Positions 35,924 to 43,995 of a DNA stretch of 64,000 nt are shown here, one piece after another. The stretch lies in contig NZ_FPAS01000006.1 in the NCBI RefSeq assembly GCF_900116425.1, positions 1 through 64,000 of the forward strand, read 5' to 3'. The translations under genes were made by a program, and so were the position numbers. The notes beneath the pieces were generated by a model, which made no database searches, was not told the DNA's origin, and was given only the letters and a program-made list of their open reading frames with translations. Origin of the DNA: Lishizhenia tianjinensis (lineage in GTDB: Bacteria; Bacteroidota; Bacteroidia; Flavobacteriales_D; Crocinitomicaceae). Within the stretch, counting starts at the first letter, position 1. Each line of letters begins with the position of its first letter.

Positions 35924-36778
35924 ATGAAAAGTTTAATCGTTTTACTCACTGCCCTCACTTTCGGTTACTTCAACACCGACAACCACTCAATTTCTCTACA
36001 AGAAGCCATAGATAAAGGTATGGTAGAGGCCAAATTCCTTTCAACAGGAGATTATTCTGGCACCTCCATCAATATAAAAATCAAATGGCTAAAGGGAAGA
36101 AAAGTACCTTTAACCATAACCCACGGAACGCAGTTTTTATCCGAAGATGAAGGAGATCAAGATATTTTCATCTTAGAAGACCAAGACATTTTTGTTAAAA
36201 GTAATGAAGAGGAAACATTTCCTTTAATCGGTTACTGTTGCCAAGCCTCTAACTCCGCTCCTTCAGAAAACTCAAGTTTTAAAATGTCTAAGGCAAGCTC
36301 TAAAGACCTTCTAAGTTTAGCAGATTTCTGCAATGGTAAAAGGCTAGACAATCATTCTAAGCAAGCTGCCATTTGGGCAATTTCTGACGACCACAGTTTA
36401 AGCGATATACACGATATAGATAACCCTATCGTTAAAAATCTTCGTAAAAAAGTTGCTGAAATTAAACACGTAGAAGATAACTGGTACAGCACGGTAACGG
36501 AATATGAAATGGACGAAAATCGCAACATATCACGTCAACCTGTAGAGGTAAAAGGAGATTTAGAGTACGAATTTAAACGAGCAGGAAAATTGAGTTATGC
36601 CGTGTACGATGCAGATGACAAATTAATTAAACATTTGGGAGATGGCCTGCCTATTACAAGGCCAGGAAGTTACAGTTTTGGTTTCAACTTAAAAGTAGAA
36701 GGATGGACACCTGGAAAATACAGTGTGAAATTAAGTATGAACGGAAACATTATTCACGCTCAAGCGTTTGAAGTATAA
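35924..36778 (+). CDS. Exported protein of unknown function
   Basis: 284 aa. A short hydrophobic N-terminus (KSLIVLLTALTFGYF) suggests export. The first ~100 residues are beta-rich (SINIKIKWLKGRKVPLTI). A central segment has a Cys pair (YCCQAS) and a further Cys (ADFCNGKRL) followed by QAAIWAISDDHSLSDI. Pairs of Cys followed by a Q-A-x-W segment recall domains of some secreted proteins, but I cannot name the family. The C-terminal ~90 residues look like an Ig-like or chaperone-like beta domain (PGSYSFGFNLKVEGWTPGKY). It is bounded by terminators on both sides, so is probably monocistronic. Confidence 0.7.
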   Translation: MKSLIVLLTALTFGYFNTDNHSISLQEAIDKGMVEAKFLSTGDYSGTSINIKIKWLKGRKVPLTITHGTQFLSEDEGDQDIFILEDQDIFVKSNEEETFPLIGYCCQASNSAPSENSSFKMSKASSKDLLSLADFCNGKRLDNHSKQAAIWAISDDHSLSDIHDIDNPIVKNLRKKVAEIKHVEDNWYSTVTEYEMDENRNISRQPVEVKGDLEYEFKRAGKLSYAVYDADDKLIKHLGDGLPITRPGSYSFGFNLKVEGWTPGKYSVKLSMNGNIIHAQAFEV

Positions 36779-36814: not shown

Positions 36815-36851
36815 AAAAGCTCTTTACAACTTGTGAAGGGCTTTTATTTTT
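36815..36851 (+). terminator. Rho-independent terminator, overlapping the next promoter
   Basis: A 10-bp stem (36815-36824 with 36836-36845, one wobble), 11-nt loop, then ATTTTT. The T tract is shared with the -7 box of the following sensor gene. Confidence 0.75.
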
Positions 36852-36867: not shown

Positions 36868-38898
36868 ATGAAACAACTAAACTTCATCATTTTCATCTTC
36901 GTGATGTTGCTTCCGCTAGAGGGAAAGTCTATACAAGTAGACAGAAACCTAACGGTGGTTGAATTGACCTCTTCTAATGTAGAGGTGATTATGGATCCTG
37001 ACAGAGCCTTTAACATCGATAATTTACCCCAAGAAAAATTCAATTATTTAAATCAGAACACTCTAAATTTTGGTTTTTATGATGGTGCTGTTTGGCTAAA
37101 GCTATACATAGGTGCTCCGCAACGTTTCAATTATATTTTAGAACTCAAAAACCCATATCTAGATAACGTCACCCTATTCGTTAAGAATGAAAAAAATTAT
37201 TTTCAAGAATACGAGGTTGGCGATAAATTTCCTTTTTCTAAAAGAGTTGATGAACACAGATATTTCCACTTTCCTTTAACAGGTTCTCAAACCATCATTA
37301 TGCGTTTTGACAATGCTGGTGATCAGTTTGCAATACCGGCGTATCTTTTCTCTAATAAAGCCTTAAACAAAAGGGATTATGAGGAGCAGTTTATCTTGGG
37401 TATTTATTATGGAATTATACTCTTTGTACTGCTTTTTAACTTTTTCATCTACTTTAGAATTCAACTCACACCGAATTTCTATTATGTCCTTTATTTGATA
37501 GGACTCATGTTGTTACAGTTAGGTTTGGGTGGACATGGCTTTCAATATTTATGGCCTTCGAGTCCGTATTTAGCCAACCACATGTTACCCATAATGGCAA
37601 GTTTGGGAGTTTTCTTCTTGTTACTTTTTGTACGCTCCTTTTTGCAACTTAAAACACTTATGCCTAGGGTAAATAAAGCCTTAACCCTCACTAGTTTCTT
37701 ATTGCTTGGGGTCTTTATTCTCTCCTGCATTCCAGTGCCTATGTGCTATAAAATTTCGGTAGTTGCAGTAAATGTTATCACCTTCATACTCAACATCGCT
37801 ATCATTCCTATTTCTCTTTATGCGGTTAAAAAGAAATTCAGACCTGCCCGCTTTTTTTTCTTGGCTTTTGTCTTGTTGTTCATCTCCGTTTTTATCTTCT
37901 TACTCAAAAATTTTGGATGGGTTGCCAGCAATTTCTTAACCCAGTACAGTTTGCAAATAGGTTCTTCTATAGAAGTTATTCTCCTTTCTTTTGCGATAGT
38001 AGATAGGTTTAAGATGTACAAGGAAGAGGCTTTACTTCAGCTGGAAGAAAAAAATCAACTTATTAAAGAACAAGCTACCTTATTGGAGGAAAAGGTTAAT
38101 ATCCGAACTGCACAGCTTTCAGAAAAATCGGATCAATTGCTGTACAAAAACAAGGAGATTTTAGACTCCATTAATTACGCTCAAAGGATACAAGACTCGG
38201 TGATGCCTTTGAAAAGTGAAATTGAAGATCACCTCAATGCCTTTGTATTTTTCCAACCTAAAGACATTGTGAGTGGTGATTTTTATTGGATCAATGAAAT
38301 GGGGAAATACAAAATTCTTGCTTTGGCCGATTGTACGGGACATGGCGTACCGGGTGCCATGCTCAGCATACTTGGTATCAACACCCTGAACAATGCACTC
38401 AAACAAGCTCAACTCTCAGAACCAGCAGAAATTTTAAAATACACCAACAAGCAATTCAACATCGCGCTGGCTAAGGAAAATAAAAAAACCATACGAGATG
38501 GGATGGACATTTCTATTTGTCGCTTGGATTTGGAAGAAAACATACTTTATTTCTCTGGAGCAAATGCCAACATCTACGTCGTTCGCGACCAAGAAATAAT
38601 TCAACTTAAAGGAGACAGAAACCCTATAGGATCTTTAAACATTGAGTACGATTACAGCCAACAGGAGCTTAAGCTTCAAAAAAATGATGTTATTTATTTG
38701 TTTACAGATGGTTATCCCGATCAATTTGGTGGCTTAAAAAACAAGAAGCTCAAACACAAGGAATTTAAAAACTTACTTCTCAAAATCAACACGTTAACAC
38801 CTGTAGAGCAACATGCTCGTTTGGATGGCTTTATGAGAAACTGGAAGGGCAATTTTGAACAAATAGATGACATGAGTATTATCGGGTTAAAAATTTAG
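36868..38898 (+). CDS. 7TMR-DISM sensor with SpoIIE/PP2C phosphatase domain (first of three)
   Basis: 676 aa. Signal peptide ~1-21. The periplasmic 7TMR-DISM ectodomain is at ~25-165 (WLKLYIGAPQRFNYILELKNPYLDNV). Seven membrane helices lie at ~175-385, starting with FILGIYYGIILFVLLFNFFI, and a coiled coil at ~385-440 (QLEEKNQLIKEQATLLEEKV). The SpoIIE-type phosphatase domain is at ~455-676. The metal-binding acidic residues are present: SGDFYW (Asp471), ALADCTGHGVPGA (Asp488), RDGMDIS, LFTDGYPDQFG, and IDDMSIIGL near the C-terminus. Expected to sense a ligand outside the inner membrane and dephosphorylate a Ser/Thr-phosphorylated protein inside, by analogy with RsbU. No anti-sigma-antagonist partner is encoded nearby. 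First of three tandem paralogues. Confidence 0.92.
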   Translation: MKQLNFIIFIFVMLLPLEGKSIQVDRNLTVVELTSSNVEVIMDPDRAFNIDNLPQEKFNYLNQNTLNFGFYDGAVWLKLYIGAPQRFNYILELKNPYLDNVTLFVKNEKNYFQEYEVGDKFPFSKRVDEHRYFHFPLTGSQTIIMRFDNAGDQFAIPAYLFSNKALNKRDYEEQFILGIYYGIILFVLLFNFFIYFRIQLTPNFYYVLYLIGLMLLQLGLGGHGFQYLWPSSPYLANHMLPIMASLGVFFLLLFVRSFLQLKTLMPRVNKALTLTSFLLLGVFILSCIPVPMCYKISVVAVNVITFILNIAIIPISLYAVKKKFRPARFFFLAFVLLFISVFIFLLKNFGWVASNFLTQYSLQIGSSIEVILLSFAIVDRFKMYKEEALLQLEEKNQLIKEQATLLEEKVNIRTAQLSEKSDQLLYKNKEILDSINYAQRIQDSVMPLKSEIEDHLNAFVFFQPKDIVSGDFYWINEMGKYKILALADCTGHGVPGAMLSILGINTLNNALKQAQLSEPAEILKYTNKQFNIALAKENKKTIRDGMDISICRLDLEENILYFSGANANIYVVRDQEIIQLKGDRNPIGSLNIEYDYSQQELKLQKNDVIYLFTDGYPDQFGGLKNKKLKHKEFKNLLLKINTLTPVEQHARLDGFMRNWKGNFEQIDDMSIIGLKI

Positions 38899-38907
38899 AT
38901 GAAGCAG

Positions 38908-38937
38908 TTTGAAATCATTGAAATTGCTTTAACTTTA
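38908..38937 (+). promoter_or_regulatory. Internal promoter before the second sensor gene
   Basis: TTTG (38908-38911), 18-nt spacer, TAACTTTA (38930-38937; 7 of 8 to TAnnTTTG), 34 nt before ATG 38972. It would let the second and third genes be expressed apart from the first. Confidence 0.5.
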
Positions 38938-38971
38938 GGTATCCAACTCGCGCAACTAGGCTGTTTTCAAA

Positions 38972-40969
38972 ATGAAGATAAGTCGCTCCATACTACTCCT
39001 ACTTCTACCTATTTTGGTGGTACTTGTTTTTTCATCTTCGAAAGAACCAACTAGTCATGATTTAAGTTCAATAGAATATTTCACCACCAATTCAGATGAA
39101 ATTTCACAGCTCATAGAGCAAGAGCAACTCTATATTTCTTATGCAAAAAATGACCACATCAATTTAGACGATGATTTCATTTGGTTAAAGATTGATGGAA
39201 GACTCTTCAAAAACAATAAATACATCAAAATCTTAAACAAATTAACTCCGCGTATAGAACAGTACAAAAAGATAGATAAAGGCTATATATTAATCGATAG
39301 TTCTGGTTACAACATTCCCTGTAAACAAAGGAGTTTATGTCACCAACATTTCATCTTAAACATATATCCAGAAATCAATTATTACCGCATATACAACCCG
39401 GATATCATAACCAATTTGAGATTGAATTTGCTCAATAAAAGCAGTTTAATATCTGACAATTTAAAAGAGCAAATGGGCTTTGGTATTTACTACGGCGTAT
39501 TTCTCTTCTTTATTACACTGAATACATTTTTATTCATACAGCTCAAAGACAACGCCTATTTATTCAATATCAGTTTTACGTTTTTATTAGCACTCAGTTT
39601 TGCACTTTATGATGGAAACTTCTCGAGTTCTATCTTCTCGTCTATCTCTATAAACACCTATGTAATAAGTCGTGTACTTTTTCACATCCTCCTACTCAAT
39701 CACCTCATCTTTGCATATTCATTCTTTGGAATAGTAAAACGAAAAAGCTATTGGAAAAAGACCTTTATTGCTTTATTTGTGCTTCAGGGGCTACTCATAC
39801 TTCTCTCAACTTCCCCTTGGAGAAACCTGGATTTAGTACTTAATTACGTAAGTATTTACAACTTCTTTATACAGGTGATAATTGTATCTGTGCTCATTAT
39901 TCAGGCATTGATAAAACCTAGAAATGTTAATCAAAAATACCTGATTGCCTATTTCCCCGTGATAACTCTGGTAATTGCCTACCTCTTAAAAATTTCGGGT
40001 TTAAGTTTTTTGAAGTTCAATTTTAATGACATACTCTACACCTGTCTTTCTACCCTTGTAGTATTGCTTGCCATTTACATCATTGATGCTTTTTCATCTT
40101 ACAGAGAGGATGCAGAAAAGAGGTTAAAAGAAATGACCAAAATTAAAAACCACAATAACCTCAACTTAGAAAATAAGATCAATCAGGAGACTTTGTACCT
40201 GCAAGAGCAACAGAAACAACTCGAAATTAAAAACAAAGAATTGCTTGATTCGTTTCACTATGCCAAGCGTATACAAAACTCCCTGCTCACCAATGAAGCG
40301 ACTATTCAAAGTGTGTTTCCGGATAGTTTTTTAATTTTTCAACCCAAAGAAATTTTAAGCACAGACTTTTATTGGGTTACCCAGGTTAGCACCAAAAACA
40401 ACCCAAACTTAGTTTTGTTTTGCATAGGGAAACCCGACCAAACAGGTATACCTGGAACCTTGATAAATGCCATCATATTAAAGACCATTAGAAACTCCAT
40501 TCACTCTCAAAAATTGAGTAATACAGCAAGAGTTATCAATTACATTCAACACCGCTTGGATGTTGTATTGGCTAAAAACGGGGTAAATGCAAAAAACTCT
40601 TTGATGGTTGGGGTTTACAACAAAACTAATCATCATTTATCTTTCTCTGGGAATATAGAGATGTTGGAAATTATGCGCAATGGAAAACCTTTGGACAAGC
40701 ATAAATACATACACCAAACAGAGGAATACAAAGGCAGTTATATTAGTCAAGAACATGGTATAGATTTAGAGGAAAATGATGAGATTTACTTGTTTACCGA
40801 AGGAATAGAGTCCGCCCTAAACACTAAGGGGAAACATTATTTCTTACAACTACTTATGAGTTTAAGTACTGCTCCCATCTCTTTTCAAAAAGATGAAATG
40901 CTTCGGGAAGTAGCGGCTTTAAAAATTGATCAACATAAAGACCTTACCTTAATTGGATTTAAAATTTAA
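38972..40969 (+). CDS. 7TMR-DISM sensor with degenerate SpoIIE domain (pseudophosphatase; second of three)
   Basis: 665 aa with the same order of parts as its neighbours: signal peptide (KISRSILLLLLPILVVLVF), divergent ectodomain (~25-155), seven membrane helices (~165-380, GFGIYYGVFLFFITLNTFLF), coiled coil (~385-435), SpoIIE-like domain (~450-665). Key catalytic positions are changed. ADCTGHG is replaced by a segment reading GKPDQTG (Lys487 where Asp is expected). LFTDGYPDQFG is LFTEGIESALN. IDDMSIIG is HKDLTLIG. RDGMDIS is KNSLMVG. Only the first Asp (STDFYW) remains. Phosphatase activity is therefore unlikely. The frame is intact over its whole length, so it is not a decaying pseudogene. 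It may be a regulatory partner of its neighbours. The third gene starts 4 bp after its stop. Confidence 0.9.
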   Translation: MKISRSILLLLLPILVVLVFSSSKEPTSHDLSSIEYFTTNSDEISQLIEQEQLYISYAKNDHINLDDDFIWLKIDGRLFKNNKYIKILNKLTPRIEQYKKIDKGYILIDSSGYNIPCKQRSLCHQHFILNIYPEINYYRIYNPDIITNLRLNLLNKSSLISDNLKEQMGFGIYYGVFLFFITLNTFLFIQLKDNAYLFNISFTFLLALSFALYDGNFSSSIFSSISINTYVISRVLFHILLLNHLIFAYSFFGIVKRKSYWKKTFIALFVLQGLLILLSTSPWRNLDLVLNYVSIYNFFIQVIIVSVLIIQALIKPRNVNQKYLIAYFPVITLVIAYLLKISGLSFLKFNFNDILYTCLSTLVVLLAIYIIDAFSSYREDAEKRLKEMTKIKNHNNLNLENKINQETLYLQEQQKQLEIKNKELLDSFHYAKRIQNSLLTNEATIQSVFPDSFLIFQPKEILSTDFYWVTQVSTKNNPNLVLFCIGKPDQTGIPGTLINAIILKTIRNSIHSQKLSNTARVINYIQHRLDVVLAKNGVNAKNSLMVGVYNKTNHHLSFSGNIEMLEIMRNGKPLDKHKYIHQTEEYKGSYISQEHGIDLEENDEIYLFTEGIESALNTKGKHYFLQLLMSLSTAPISFQKDEMLREVAALKIDQHKDLTLIGFKI

Positions 40970-40973
40970 CCCC

Positions 40974-43004
40974 ATGGAAAAACTACGCATATATCTCATC
41001 GTAATATGTTCCTTGTGCATACACTCATGGGCGTATTCCAATTGCAACCCTCCCTATGCGATGGCCTACACGAAACTTGATCTTGAGATTTTTGACAAGA
41101 ATGAATTAGAAAATTACTCCTATACAAGTTCCTCGTCGTGCAAGGTAGAAAGCTTTGGTTTTTACAAAGGAGATATCGTATTAAAGTTTGATTTGCTCGA
41201 TCCGCAGTTGATTACCACTTTTCTTTCTTTAGACAATCCCCTACTTGACAGCATAGAGGTTTACTACAAGAACAGTAGAAACCAAATGCAGATGTTTTAT
41301 GTGACGGGGGATTTGATGCATTTCGGAAAAAGATTAAATAAGGATTTTCTCCTTCCTTTAAAAGGACAGCAAGAATTCTACGTCAGAATCATCAATTATG
41401 GAACTCCCCTTTACCTCCCGATGTCTTATGTCAATGAAGAGGAATTAATAACCAAAAATTCAAGTCTTAACTTTTACAATGGCCTACTCTACGGAATTAT
41501 CATTTTATCCATACTCTTCAACCTTTATTTATGGGTGAAAAATAGGTCGAGCATACACTACTCCTTGTACTTAAGTGCATTTTTCTTATTGGTTTTTACC
41601 CTTCAGGGATACTCCTATCAACTCCTTTGGCCTAATTCACCTTACCTTCAACAGGTTGCTATCCCTGTGGTTGTAATCTTGATAAATATTTACCTTACGC
41701 GCTTTTATCAGTTCTTTTACAGCACGCAAAAGAACTTACCATCACTCAACCGAATTTTCAATAAAATCAATACATTTTTACCTATAGGCTTACTTCTCTG
41801 TTTAATTCCAAGCTTAGAGATAGAGTTTTACAAATACCTTTTCATTAATCTACTTTCGTTAGCACTCTTTGTGTTGTACGTTGTAGGTTTTGTTAAAATA
41901 TGGAAGCAATTGAACAATGAATTGTGGTTAATAAGCATATCACTTTCGGCTTTTTTCGTGAGCGCAATCATTTACATTGGAACTAATTTTCAACTTTTCC
42001 CCTACACAACAATTACCCATCACAGTTTAGAGCTCGGTGCACTTGTACAAATTTTCTTATTGACTTTTGCAATCTCTATAAGGTTTAAGAAATTCAGACA
42101 ATTTAAAATTGAACAACTCATTAGAACCAATCGTTTTAAACAGCACGAAAATTTAAAGCTCTCTCAGAAGGTAGAGGACAGGAAAAAAGAAATATCTCTC
42201 CAAAGCAAAGTTTTTGAAGAACACAACTCCAACATTTTAAAATCAATTACCTATTCCTACAATGTTCAAAAAGCTTTACTTCCAGAAAGGCAGGAGATGG
42301 AAAATAATTTTAGAGAACATTTTCTTTACTACCAACCTAAAGATATTGTAAGTGGTGATTTCTATTGGGCAAAGAACATTAACGTATATGAGAATGGAGA
42401 AAAAAACAACTATACACTTGCTGCCGTTGGAGATTGCACAGGACATGGTATACCAGGAGCATTGATTAGTGTATTAGCTATCAATACCCTTAATCAAGCT
42501 ATTCGATTGTCAGAAAATAAAACCACCGAAGACTTACTAAATTTCCTCAACAAAGAGATCAATACAATTTTTAACAGCAATATAGATGGCGAAAACATAA
42601 GGGATGGATTAGATATTGCGCTAATTGCAATAAATAATAGTACCAAGGTTCTGCATTACAGTACAGCCAAAAGTCAAATTTTACACCTTAGGCAAGGAAA
42701 ACTCACGCGATTAAAAACGAGTAACAATCCTATAGGTATTCAGGATACTACACCTTTCTTCAGTAAAGGAGAATTACAATTAGAAACCAACGACCAATTG
42801 TATTTACTCACAGATGGATATGCCGATCAATTTGGTGGACCTTACGGCAAAAAGTATAAGATTAACATGCTTAAGTCTCAACTCGAAAGCATAGGTAATT
42901 TAGACATGGACGTACAGAAGTCCACACTGGAAGATGGTTTAAATAATTGGAAAGGAAAATTGGAACAAACCGATGATATCACCCTATTGGGAATACGTAT
43001 TTAG
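40974..43004 (+). CDS. 7TMR-DISM sensor with SpoIIE/PP2C phosphatase domain (third of three)
   Basis: 676 aa from ATG 40974 (an upstream TTG at 40953 lies inside the previous gene). Signal peptide ~1-23, ectodomain with Cys pair (NCNPPYAMAY; SSSCKVESFG), seven membrane helices (~170-385), coiled coil (~390-440), SpoIIE domain (~455-676). All expected catalytic segments are present: SGDFYW, AVGDCTGHGIPGA (Asp487), RDGLDIALI, LLTDGYADQFGG and TDDITLLGI. Predicted active Ser/Thr phosphatase. It follows the degenerate paralogue by 4 bp and so is co-transcribed with it. Its stop codon overlaps the stop of the convergent ankyrin gene. Confidence 0.92.
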   Translation: MEKLRIYLIVICSLCIHSWAYSNCNPPYAMAYTKLDLEIFDKNELENYSYTSSSSCKVESFGFYKGDIVLKFDLLDPQLITTFLSLDNPLLDSIEVYYKNSRNQMQMFYVTGDLMHFGKRLNKDFLLPLKGQQEFYVRIINYGTPLYLPMSYVNEEELITKNSSLNFYNGLLYGIIILSILFNLYLWVKNRSSIHYSLYLSAFFLLVFTLQGYSYQLLWPNSPYLQQVAIPVVVILINIYLTRFYQFFYSTQKNLPSLNRIFNKINTFLPIGLLLCLIPSLEIEFYKYLFINLLSLALFVLYVVGFVKIWKQLNNELWLISISLSAFFVSAIIYIGTNFQLFPYTTITHHSLELGALVQIFLLTFAISIRFKKFRQFKIEQLIRTNRFKQHENLKLSQKVEDRKKEISLQSKVFEEHNSNILKSITYSYNVQKALLPERQEMENNFREHFLYYQPKDIVSGDFYWAKNINVYENGEKNNYTLAAVGDCTGHGIPGALISVLAINTLNQAIRLSENKTTEDLLNFLNKEINTIFNSNIDGENIRDGLDIALIAINNSTKVLHYSTAKSQILHLRQGKLTRLKTSNNPIGIQDTTPFFSKGELQLETNDQLYLLTDGYADQFGGPYGKKYKINMLKSQLESIGNLDMDVQKSTLEDGLNNWKGKLEQTDDITLLGIRI

Positions 43005-43597
43005 AAATTAAAAATACGTTTCCAAACTGGCTTTTTACCATTTACATTTGTTGTCACCTTTACCGGTGTTGCTCCGGCACTCAACAACATGTGCATTGCT
43101 TGCTGGTGTTTTTGAGCCGTTGCATAATACAAAGCAGTTTTTCCTTTTTTATCTTTTATGTCTATGTCTGCTCCCTTGGCAATTAACAATTCAACGATAG
43201 CAAGACAATTGTATAATGACGCAGTAATCAAAGGGGGAACCATAGCCTCCTTTACACCGTTAACGTTTGCTCCTTTCTCTAATAATCTTTCAGCAATAAC
43301 ACTGTTGTTTTTCATTGCAGCATAGTGCATAGCATTGTTGCCAGTAAGATCTAACCTGTCTGGTTCTGCTCCAACACTGAGTAAGTAAAGAGATAGTTCA
43401 TCATTTCCTGAACGAATAGCACTGTGCAAGGCCAATTCACCGCTGTCATCAGCGATGTTAACATCTGCTCCAAGCGCTATAATCTCTTTAACCTGTAAAA
43501 GGTTTCCTTGATGAGCATATTGAATTAAATCAGAAGCAAATTGCTTCATATCCTTGTCGATCACGTCGATAGTATTATTGGTTCGTATATCTAACAT
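43001..43597 (-). CDS. Ankyrin-repeat protein
   Basis: 198 aa from ATG 43597; the longer frame to a TTG at 43654 lacks support. Four to five ankyrin repeats of ~33 residues occupy ~30-185, e.g. GADVNIADDSGELALHSAI, GNNAMHYAAMKNNSVIAERL, GKTALYYATAQKHQQAMHML. No signal peptide or membrane segment, so probably cytoplasmic and protein-binding. It is convergent with the sensor-phosphatase cluster, sharing the bases TTAG as both stop codons (43001-43004). Proximity to the cluster hints at, but does not show, a connection. Confidence 0.87.
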   Translation of the reverse strand: MLDIRTNNTIDVIDKDMKQFASDLIQYAHQGNLLQVKEIIALGADVNIADDSGELALHSAIRSGNDELSLYLLSVGAEPDRLDLTGNNAMHYAAMKNNSVIAERLLEKGANVNGVKEAMVPPLITASLYNCLAIVELLIAKGADIDIKDKKGKTALYYATAQKHQQAMHMLLSAGATPVKVTTNVNGKKPVWKRIFNF

Positions 43598-43995
43598 ATT
43601 ACAAGTTATATACGGTCTCGTGAAAAAGGTATTTTGTGTAGTAGTTGTACACAAAAAAACTCTTTTAATCCATCTCTCAAAACTTAATTGACGAAACGAA
43701 AGAAATAAGGGGTAATTAACCTACCCAATTAAGGAAGCTTACCTAAAACCTCTCACTAATTTCTATACCGAATAATTCCATACAAAGATGACAAACTTAA
43801 CTCACATAAAAAGAGAGTGTTAGGTTTAATAACAAAAAGTTTATTTTAAGTAACAAATGAGAAATAATTCGTTCACACCCAATAAAAATACACCGCATGA
43901 AAAGTGAATTTCTAGGAGAACACTACCCATGTCTTCAGTCCCAAAAAAAGCCCCTCCAAAAGTATAGGAGGAGCTCAAAATAGGTATAAATATTT
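43598..43995. other. Gene-free interval between ankyrin and T9SS-protein genes
   Basis: Holds a minus-strand CATCTTTG (43790-43783) that may serve the ankyrin gene with a long leader, and the terminator of the T9SS protein gene at its right end. Otherwise AT-rich with no frame I would call coding. Confidence 0.55.
43943..43975 (-). terminator. Rho-independent terminator of the T9SS cargo gene
   Basis: A 9-bp stem (43967-43975 with 43949-43957, one wobble) and 9-nt loop; the minus strand reads into T7. Confidence 0.88.

Follow-up and report, generated by a model that had tools for sequence, protein, structure and literature searches.

A catalytically degenerate middle copy in a tandem triplet of 7TMR-DISM/SpoIIE receptors probably tunes its active neighbors

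We analyzed a 64-kb window of Lishizhenia tianjinensis DNA (the whole 64,000-nucleotide stretch shown above), which belongs to the 267-kb contig C9; the genome measures 3.56 Mb and comes in 13 contigs. The window carries three genes for 7TMR-DISM/SpoIIE receptors, P1, P2, and P3, placed head to tail on the forward strand with gaps of 73 bp (P1-P2) and 4 bp (P2-P3). The middle copy, P2, has lost most of its metal site but keeps its frame and the register of its coiled-coil linker, and a second tandem of one active and one dead receptor gene is present in another genus of the same family. Since the pattern recurs there independently, the probable role of the dead copy is to tune the active receptors beside it. 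An earlier interpretation of this DNA made without database searches (here, the sequence-only reading) had described three tandem paralogues of 665 to 676 amino acids with 4 bp between the second and third, and the coordinates agree. The genes and the parts of P2 discussed below are as follows.

36868..38898, forward strand: P1, a 7TMR-DISMED2/7TM/coiled-coil/SiaA-type PP2C phosphatase of 676 amino acids; active site intact; the copy nearest to relatives.
38972..40969, forward strand: P2, with the same architecture as P1 and a PP2C domain without three of the four metal-site Asp; 665 amino acids; predicted pseudophosphatase.
40974..43004, forward strand: P3, a paralogue with an intact active site; 676 amino acids from the ATG; starts 4 bp past the P2 stop.
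40091..40276, forward strand: P2 linker; its 62 codons run from the Phe that closes transmembrane helix 7 (TM7) to the conserved Gln of the alpha0 helix (P1 F381-Q442); same length as in P1 and P3.
40424..40456, forward strand: P2 segment IGKPDQTGIPG, replacing the metal loop xxDCTGHGxPG.

The active-site residues of P2 were compared with those of SiaA. The conserved active-site residues of SiaA are D457, D474, G477, D600, G601, and D653, and a third metal is assisted by D604 and D534 (PMC7647112). By alignment, and in the P1 numbering used throughout, the equivalents of the first six are D471, D488, G491, D614, G615, and D667, and those of D604 and D534 are D618 and D547. P1 and P3 have all four metal-site Asp (SiaA D457, D474, D600, and D653), and P2 has the D457 equivalent only. 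The P2 substitutions are D488K, T490D, G491Q, H492T, D614E, D618S, and D667K, with D471, G615, and D668 retained and a nonacidic residue at position 547, the exact identity of which depends on the alignment. Other active-site motifs are also lost, NPIG having become HQTE and DQFGG having become SALNT. Among 43 comparison domains, D471, D488, and D614 are present in all and D667 in 42, with one gap. In SpoIIE, the named metal residues are D628, D746, and D795 (PMC8080068), which we take as counterparts of the three Asp lost in P2. P2 is a pseudophosphatase by sequence, and its residues point to inactivity; the full Asp sets of P1 and P3, and D488K, D614E, and D667K in P2, bear out the earlier claim that the catalytic segments are intact in P1 and P3 and degenerate in P2.

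It is highly improbable that P2 is not dead, with shifted acidic residues (Asp 490, Glu 614, D471, and D668) binding metal in another way or serving a new activity. D471, G615, and D668 are indeed kept, position 614 is Glu in both dead copies, and P2 has an Asp two residues past the one it lost. However, two metal-site Asp are Lys in P2, the equivalents of SiaA G477 and D604 are gone, and the lost Asp hold metal in both SiaA and SpoIIE (PMC7647112; PMC8080068).

Profile searches gave a matching picture of the domains. The 7TMR-DISM_7TM domain (PF07695) was matched by Pfam at 159.6 bits in P1, 45.9 in P2, and 84.4 in P3, all above the curated cutoff of 29, and these three are the only PF07695 matches in the genome. 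The SpoIIE profile (PF07228) scored 67.3 in P1 and 71.6 in P3, above the cutoff of 25, and 13.7 in P2, below it. DISMED2 (PF07696) was matched in P1 and P3 only, P2 having no Pfam match in that part. Genome-wide, the SpoIIE profile found P1, P3, and four other genes (on C8, at C9:112281, on C3, and on C2 in two pieces) and missed P2. The C2 protein (686 amino acids; L067:3653-5710, forward strand) has a PP2C domain with an insertion.

Structure models were built for P1 and P2. Both consist of an N-terminal helix, a periplasmic beta domain, transmembrane helices, a long helix running from TM7 into PP2C (residues 361-445 in P1, 351-438 in P2), and a PP2C domain. Mean pLDDT was 85.4 and pTM 0.57 for P1 (23 sequences), and 76.0 and 0.47 for P2 (24 sequences). 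The top VIA-align match of each PP2C domain was SiaA: 6k4e for P1 (Z 31.6, root mean square deviation [rmsd] 1.8 over 242 residues) and 6k4e_B for P2 (Z 24.6, rmsd 2.5 over 230 residues). The PP2C fold of P2 is predicted to be intact. Foldseek also matched P2 to the periplasmic domain of RetS, 3jyb (rank 49, E 2e-4, TMt 0.67, 142 columns), a match without a stated residue range that we would assign to the P2 sensor.

The models bear on a second explanation, in which P2 works alone as a homodimer, an RssB-type adaptor whose dead PP2C domain binds a target in a signal-dependent manner. Solved structures closest in fold to the P2 model include RssB (3f7a_B, Z 21.0; 3f79_D, Z 20.7), P2 keeps alpha0 and the fold, and RssB uses its switch without need for phosphatase activity (PMC5468089). 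However, the matched structures are of P. aeruginosa RssB, which is described with an active full-length domain (PMC12143880); as the P1 model likewise resembles RssB (Z 22.2), the similarity stems from the fold. With NPIG and DQFGG gone, binding of the old substrate at the old site is unlikely, and an adaptor role leaves unexplained why both dead copies adjoin an active one. We regard this explanation as unlikely, while giving it some weight.

P2 resembles P1 most in its linker and alpha0 helix. Linker length, measured from TM7-end residue 381 to Gln 442, varies in whole heptads in all 55 proteins compared: 62 residues in 27, 69 in 21, and 55 in 7. An alignment of 40 proteins puts these length differences down to 7-residue gaps at three places; in two proteins, one gain and one loss together yield a length of 62. 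This whole-heptad variation is what a phase-locked coiled coil would give. The linker is 62 residues long in P1, P2, and P3 and 55 in both copies of the second tandem. P2 differs from P1 by 22 insertion or deletion (indel) events, none of them between positions 318 and 456. The P2 coiled coil had been called intact in the sequence-only reading, in agreement with the retained length of 62 and with the 14 of 19 conserved linker positions that P2 keeps.

We surveyed SpoIIE domains in regions chosen from match lists, a nonrandom sample. Domain pieces were joined, since an insertion splits the domain in many family members, and one partial row (L126), cut by a contig end, was left out. There were 156 matches, 112 of them unique and 111 near full. 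All four Asp are present in 108 of the 111, and the rest are one frame ending early (G133), P2, and one gene of G150, a genome of the same family but another genus; two live rows differ at position 547 (Glu, Thr). Dead copies are therefore rare among near-full domains (2 of 111), and each is the tandem neighbor of an active copy. Conservation of D471, D488, and D614 in 43/43 comparison domains, and of all four Asp in 108/111, makes the Asp loss in P2 more than chance. The second tandem is located as follows.

L141:5812-10152, reverse strand: G150 tandem pair of 7TMR-DISM/SpoIIE genes, the first with an intact site, the second dead as judged from its residues.

The two G150 genes lie 33 bp apart on one strand, active copy first. 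The dead copy has N, R, and T at D488, G491, and H492, E at D614, and N at D547, is without D618, and retains D471, D667, and D668. Common to it and P2 are H492T and D614E, the loss of D488, G491, D547, and D618, and the retention of D471 and G615. It is 49% identical to its active neighbor and 44 to 47% identical to the single copies in four genomes of its own genus, and is not a P2 orthologue. Tandems of an active and a dead receptor thus arose at least twice.

We then took the positions conserved in 90% or more of 41 other proteins and counted them by region; the linker-versus-core test had been fixed from P2 before G150 came up. P2 keeps 1/6 such positions in the sensor, 6/19 in the 7TM part, 14/19 in the linker, 8/10 in alpha0, and 14/45 in the catalytic core. 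The G150 dead copy keeps 6/6, 19/19, 16/19, 10/10, and 23/45, and P3 keeps 4/6, 12/19, 13/19, 7/10, and 40/45; the G150 active copy keeps 43/45 in the core. The excess of linker over core is significant in both dead copies (Fisher p 0.002 for P2, 0.02 for G150), with no such excess in P1, P3, or the G150 active copy. A 21-protein comparison gave similar counts (P2, linker 13/20 and core 16/51; P3, linker 14/20 and core 43/51). Erosion in the two dead copies has thus hit the core and spared the linker; the G150 copy also has its sensor and membrane part unaltered, whereas those of P2 have diverged. Synonymous sites are saturated (pS 0.75 between the G150 copies, 0.77 between P1 and P2), so that only pN is informative; between the G150 copies it is 0.335 overall, 0.26 in the linker, and 0.42 in the core.

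These counts also speak to a third explanation, that P2 is a weakly constrained duplicate heading for loss and that its kept parts reflect the needs of any folded membrane protein. P2 has the longest branch (6.14), its sensor and 7TM part have diverged as much as its core, and no counterpart appears among the matches listed in relatives. On the other hand, its linker is better kept than its core, and the independent G150 dead copy keeps conserved sensor, 7TM, and linker positions fully or nearly so. P2 is also stop-free over 665 codons, at a residue identity to P1 of 24%, although 0.03 neutral substitutions per site broke the frame in 96% of 400 simulations. In these runs, which did not count indels, a stop-free frame was left in 3.75% at 0.03 and in 0.5% at 0.05 substitutions per site. 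This result bounds the recent drift of P2 and does not prove a present function; it does accord with the intact frame noted before. We consider decay quite improbable. The sequence-only reading had gone further and proposed a selected noncatalytic role: the kept frame, fold, and linker favor this, as does the independent pair in G150, and they do not settle which role it is.

Identity between P1 and P2 is 13/23 at positions 425-447 and 139/603 elsewhere (Fisher p 7e-4). The P1-P2 identity peak (423-445) falls on the alpha0 helix and the P1-P3 peak (488-510) on the catalytic loop. Of 13 identical codons in 425-447, 4 agree at the third base, which makes recent gene conversion between P1 and P2 in the linker unlikely.

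We return to tuning of active copies by the dead one, for which gating through mixed dimers is, with moderate confidence, the most economical reading of what is kept. P2 would be a noncatalytic membrane subunit that senses through its own divergent periplasmic domain, pairs with P1, P3, or both through the conserved coiled-coil linker and alpha0 helix, and sets the dimer geometry that switches the PP2C domain of its active partner. The dead copy's sensor would thereby act on its partner's switch with no chemistry of its own, and the G150 pair would be a second, younger instance. That the dead copies pair with their active siblings through the coiled coil and gate them is, in our estimate, evenly balanced.

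Several observations weigh against this reading. Mixed dimers are reached by inference and not by direct observation. Equal linker length in neighboring genes may be plain inheritance, and P3 is likewise free of indels relative to P1 in this region (12 events, none between 196 and 456). The 425-447 segment was picked after P2 had been inspected. The alpha0 helix of P2 is near the family consensus, two other proteins matching it at 65% versus 57% for P1; resembling the consensus and not P1 in particular, it could also act in a homodimer. Of the three copies P2 evolves fastest, in the sensor and 7TM part as well (17% and 24% identity to P1), a pattern also consistent with relaxed constraint, and no counterpart was found in other species among the matches listed (149 relatives, 240 family genomes). 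Finally, a tandem pair in another family (G116; L068:5157-9567, reverse strand) keeps the four Asp in both of its 7TMR-DISM/SpoIIE copies, so tandem copies need not go dead.

The lists of relatives contain no genome of P2's own genus, the nearest being G067, and the named loci with related genes are mostly from Crocinitomicaceae, Fluviicola, and other Flavobacteriales. Among the matches listed, P1 is closest to relatives, with 45% identity to G067 and 37 to 41% to the next nine genomes; the best match of P3 elsewhere is the same G067 gene (37%), and the best match of P2 outside its own genome is this G067 orthologue of P1 (28%, 166.5 bits). P1 has a match at E <= 1e-50 in 114 of 240 family genomes (its own included), many of them to the PP2C part alone. 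A P2 scan of genome contigs returned 79 pattern matches, none of which is a relative. Of 44 family stretches around P1-like genes, a single 7TM gene is present in 42, two are present in one (G150), and none in one (G060); no further triplet was seen in these stretches, where many contigs are short (the flanks visible in G067 are 1 base and 1.4 kb). The search for the triplet and for P2 in relatives, proposed earlier as a check, thus turned up neither, among listed relatives that lie outside the genus and of which the nearest, G067, is 45% identical to P1.

In the best tree, P1, P2, and P3 do not form one clade: G067 joins P1 (91/75), and P2 and P3 are long branches. A single clade of the three is not rejected (p-AU 0.15). 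End branches are 1.06 for P1 and 2.52 for P3, against 6.14 for P2 and a median of 0.31. All three genes would go back to a single 7TMR-DISM receptor whose output is a SiaA-type PP2C domain and which is usually one gene in relatives; P1 would have stayed near the relatives, P3 diverged with its active site kept, and P2 lost its metal site. We infer duplication on the spot.

The targets of the triplet are probably SiaC- or STAS-type phospho-proteins encoded elsewhere in the genome. No STAS, HATPase_c_2, SiaC, or SiaB match is listed for contig C9. The rest of the genome has three STAS matches, two of them in small frames (142 and 126 amino acids), eight HATPase_c_2 matches, one of them strong (a 138-amino-acid frame), two SiaC (PF09345) and two PF19788 matches, with one SiaB-SiaC pair adjacent on C2. 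The earlier statement that no target is encoded here thus holds for contig C9 and fails for the genome, given SiaB-SiaC and the small STAS proteins. The phosphatase genes, on C9, are not beside siaBC, which on C2 is flanked by a ZIP/methyltransferase pair and CoaE. The ZIP transporter, methyltransferase, SiaB, SiaC, and CoaE genes are together in 22 of 22 siaBC loci (e.g., L151:11096-14259), taken from this genome, G072, and 20 genomes in the upper part of the list of SiaC-matching genomes. A SpoIIE gene is near siaBC in two of them, a 7TMR-SpoIIE gene in G072 and another SpoIIE gene in G033. SiaC-like genes have matches in 180 of 240 family genomes. SiaC as substrate of the triplet phosphatases is reasonable but unproven, and the gene neighborhoods of siaBC do not establish it.

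Around the triplet, two further features were recorded.

38908..38937, forward strand: possible Bacteroidota-type promoter motif in the P1-P2 gap; not above chance across the window.
36815..36845, forward strand: hairpin resembling a terminator, ahead of P1; the region has 2 such sites, versus 3.7 in shuffles.

The Bacteroidota-type motif has 7 matches in the window versus 6.85 expected, and a sigma-70-type scan gave 22 sites versus 21.7 expected, none inside the 73-bp P1-P2 gap. Both counts are at chance level, and the internal promoter once proposed before P2 is not upheld. Just upstream of P1 is a gene for a 284-amino-acid protein without a Pfam match (35924-36778, forward strand), and an ankyrin-repeat gene (43001-43654, reverse strand) is convergent on P3, overlapping its end by 4 bp. 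None of seven window neighbors was found in the 59 loci compared for synteny.

One of the nearest known systems is SiaA of Pseudomonas aeruginosa, a HAMP receptor with a PP2C output in the SiaABCD pathway. At E <= 0.01, P3 matched no PDB sequence but the SiaA PP2C domain (1.4e-24), which also heads the VIA-align matches for the models of P1 and P2; the genome has SiaB and SiaC homologues too. The triplet differs from SiaA in having 7TMR-DISM sensors in place of HAMP, in lying away from siaBC, and in the missing metal site of P2. The SiaA PP2C domain dimerizes through alpha1-alpha3 (PMC7647112), and in SpoIIE dimerization moves the switch helices, completes the metal site, and switches the enzyme on (PMC5468089). 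Pseudo-PP2C proteins are already known: RssB and TAB1, named as such, have the PP2C fold and a role without need for phosphatase activity (PMC5468089), which P2 would resemble in its apparent inactivity. However, RssB has a receiver domain and is an adaptor, whereas P2 is a 7TM receptor of full length whose two neighboring paralogues have intact sites, and E. coli RssB, unlike P2, is C-terminally truncated (PMC12143880). RetS sets a precedent for receptors that work by pairing: it has a DISMED2 input domain, forms heterodimers with GacS to act on it (PMC11330419), and, through 3jyb, is among the P2 fold matches; RetS belongs to the histidine-kinase family, though, and its partner is a different sensor rather than a tandem paralogue. 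Coiled-coil linkers have been proposed to control the PPM phosphatases of many sensors, and RsbU is such a phosphatase switched by a linker that dimerizes its phosphatase domains (PMC12143880), but it differs in its sensor domain, its activation by RsbT, and its active homodimer.

We found no paper containing both "7TMR-DISM" and "SpoIIE," and literature searches turned up work related to RssB and on eukaryotic or unrelated subjects, which does not prove that nothing has been published. Among kinases, gating of live partners by dead enzymes is a familiar theme; the bacterial pseudo-PP2C case met in the literature consulted is RssB, an adaptor. The whole-heptad linker variation in 55 of 55 proteins supports, at the sequence level and for a family of membrane receptors, the coiled-coil transmission model proposed for RsbU. 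It is possible, though we lean slightly against it, that these tandems represent a recurrent design evolved at least twice in one family, in which a tandem dead PP2C paralogue serves as sensing subunit and heptad-registered mixed dimers bring combinatorial sensing to a SiaC/STAS pathway by a logic like that of RetS and GacS. The two independent sets of active and dead 7TMR-DISM phosphatases offer a natural test of whether PP2C receptors form mixed dimers and of the effect, inhibiting or activating, that a dead protomer would have on its partner.

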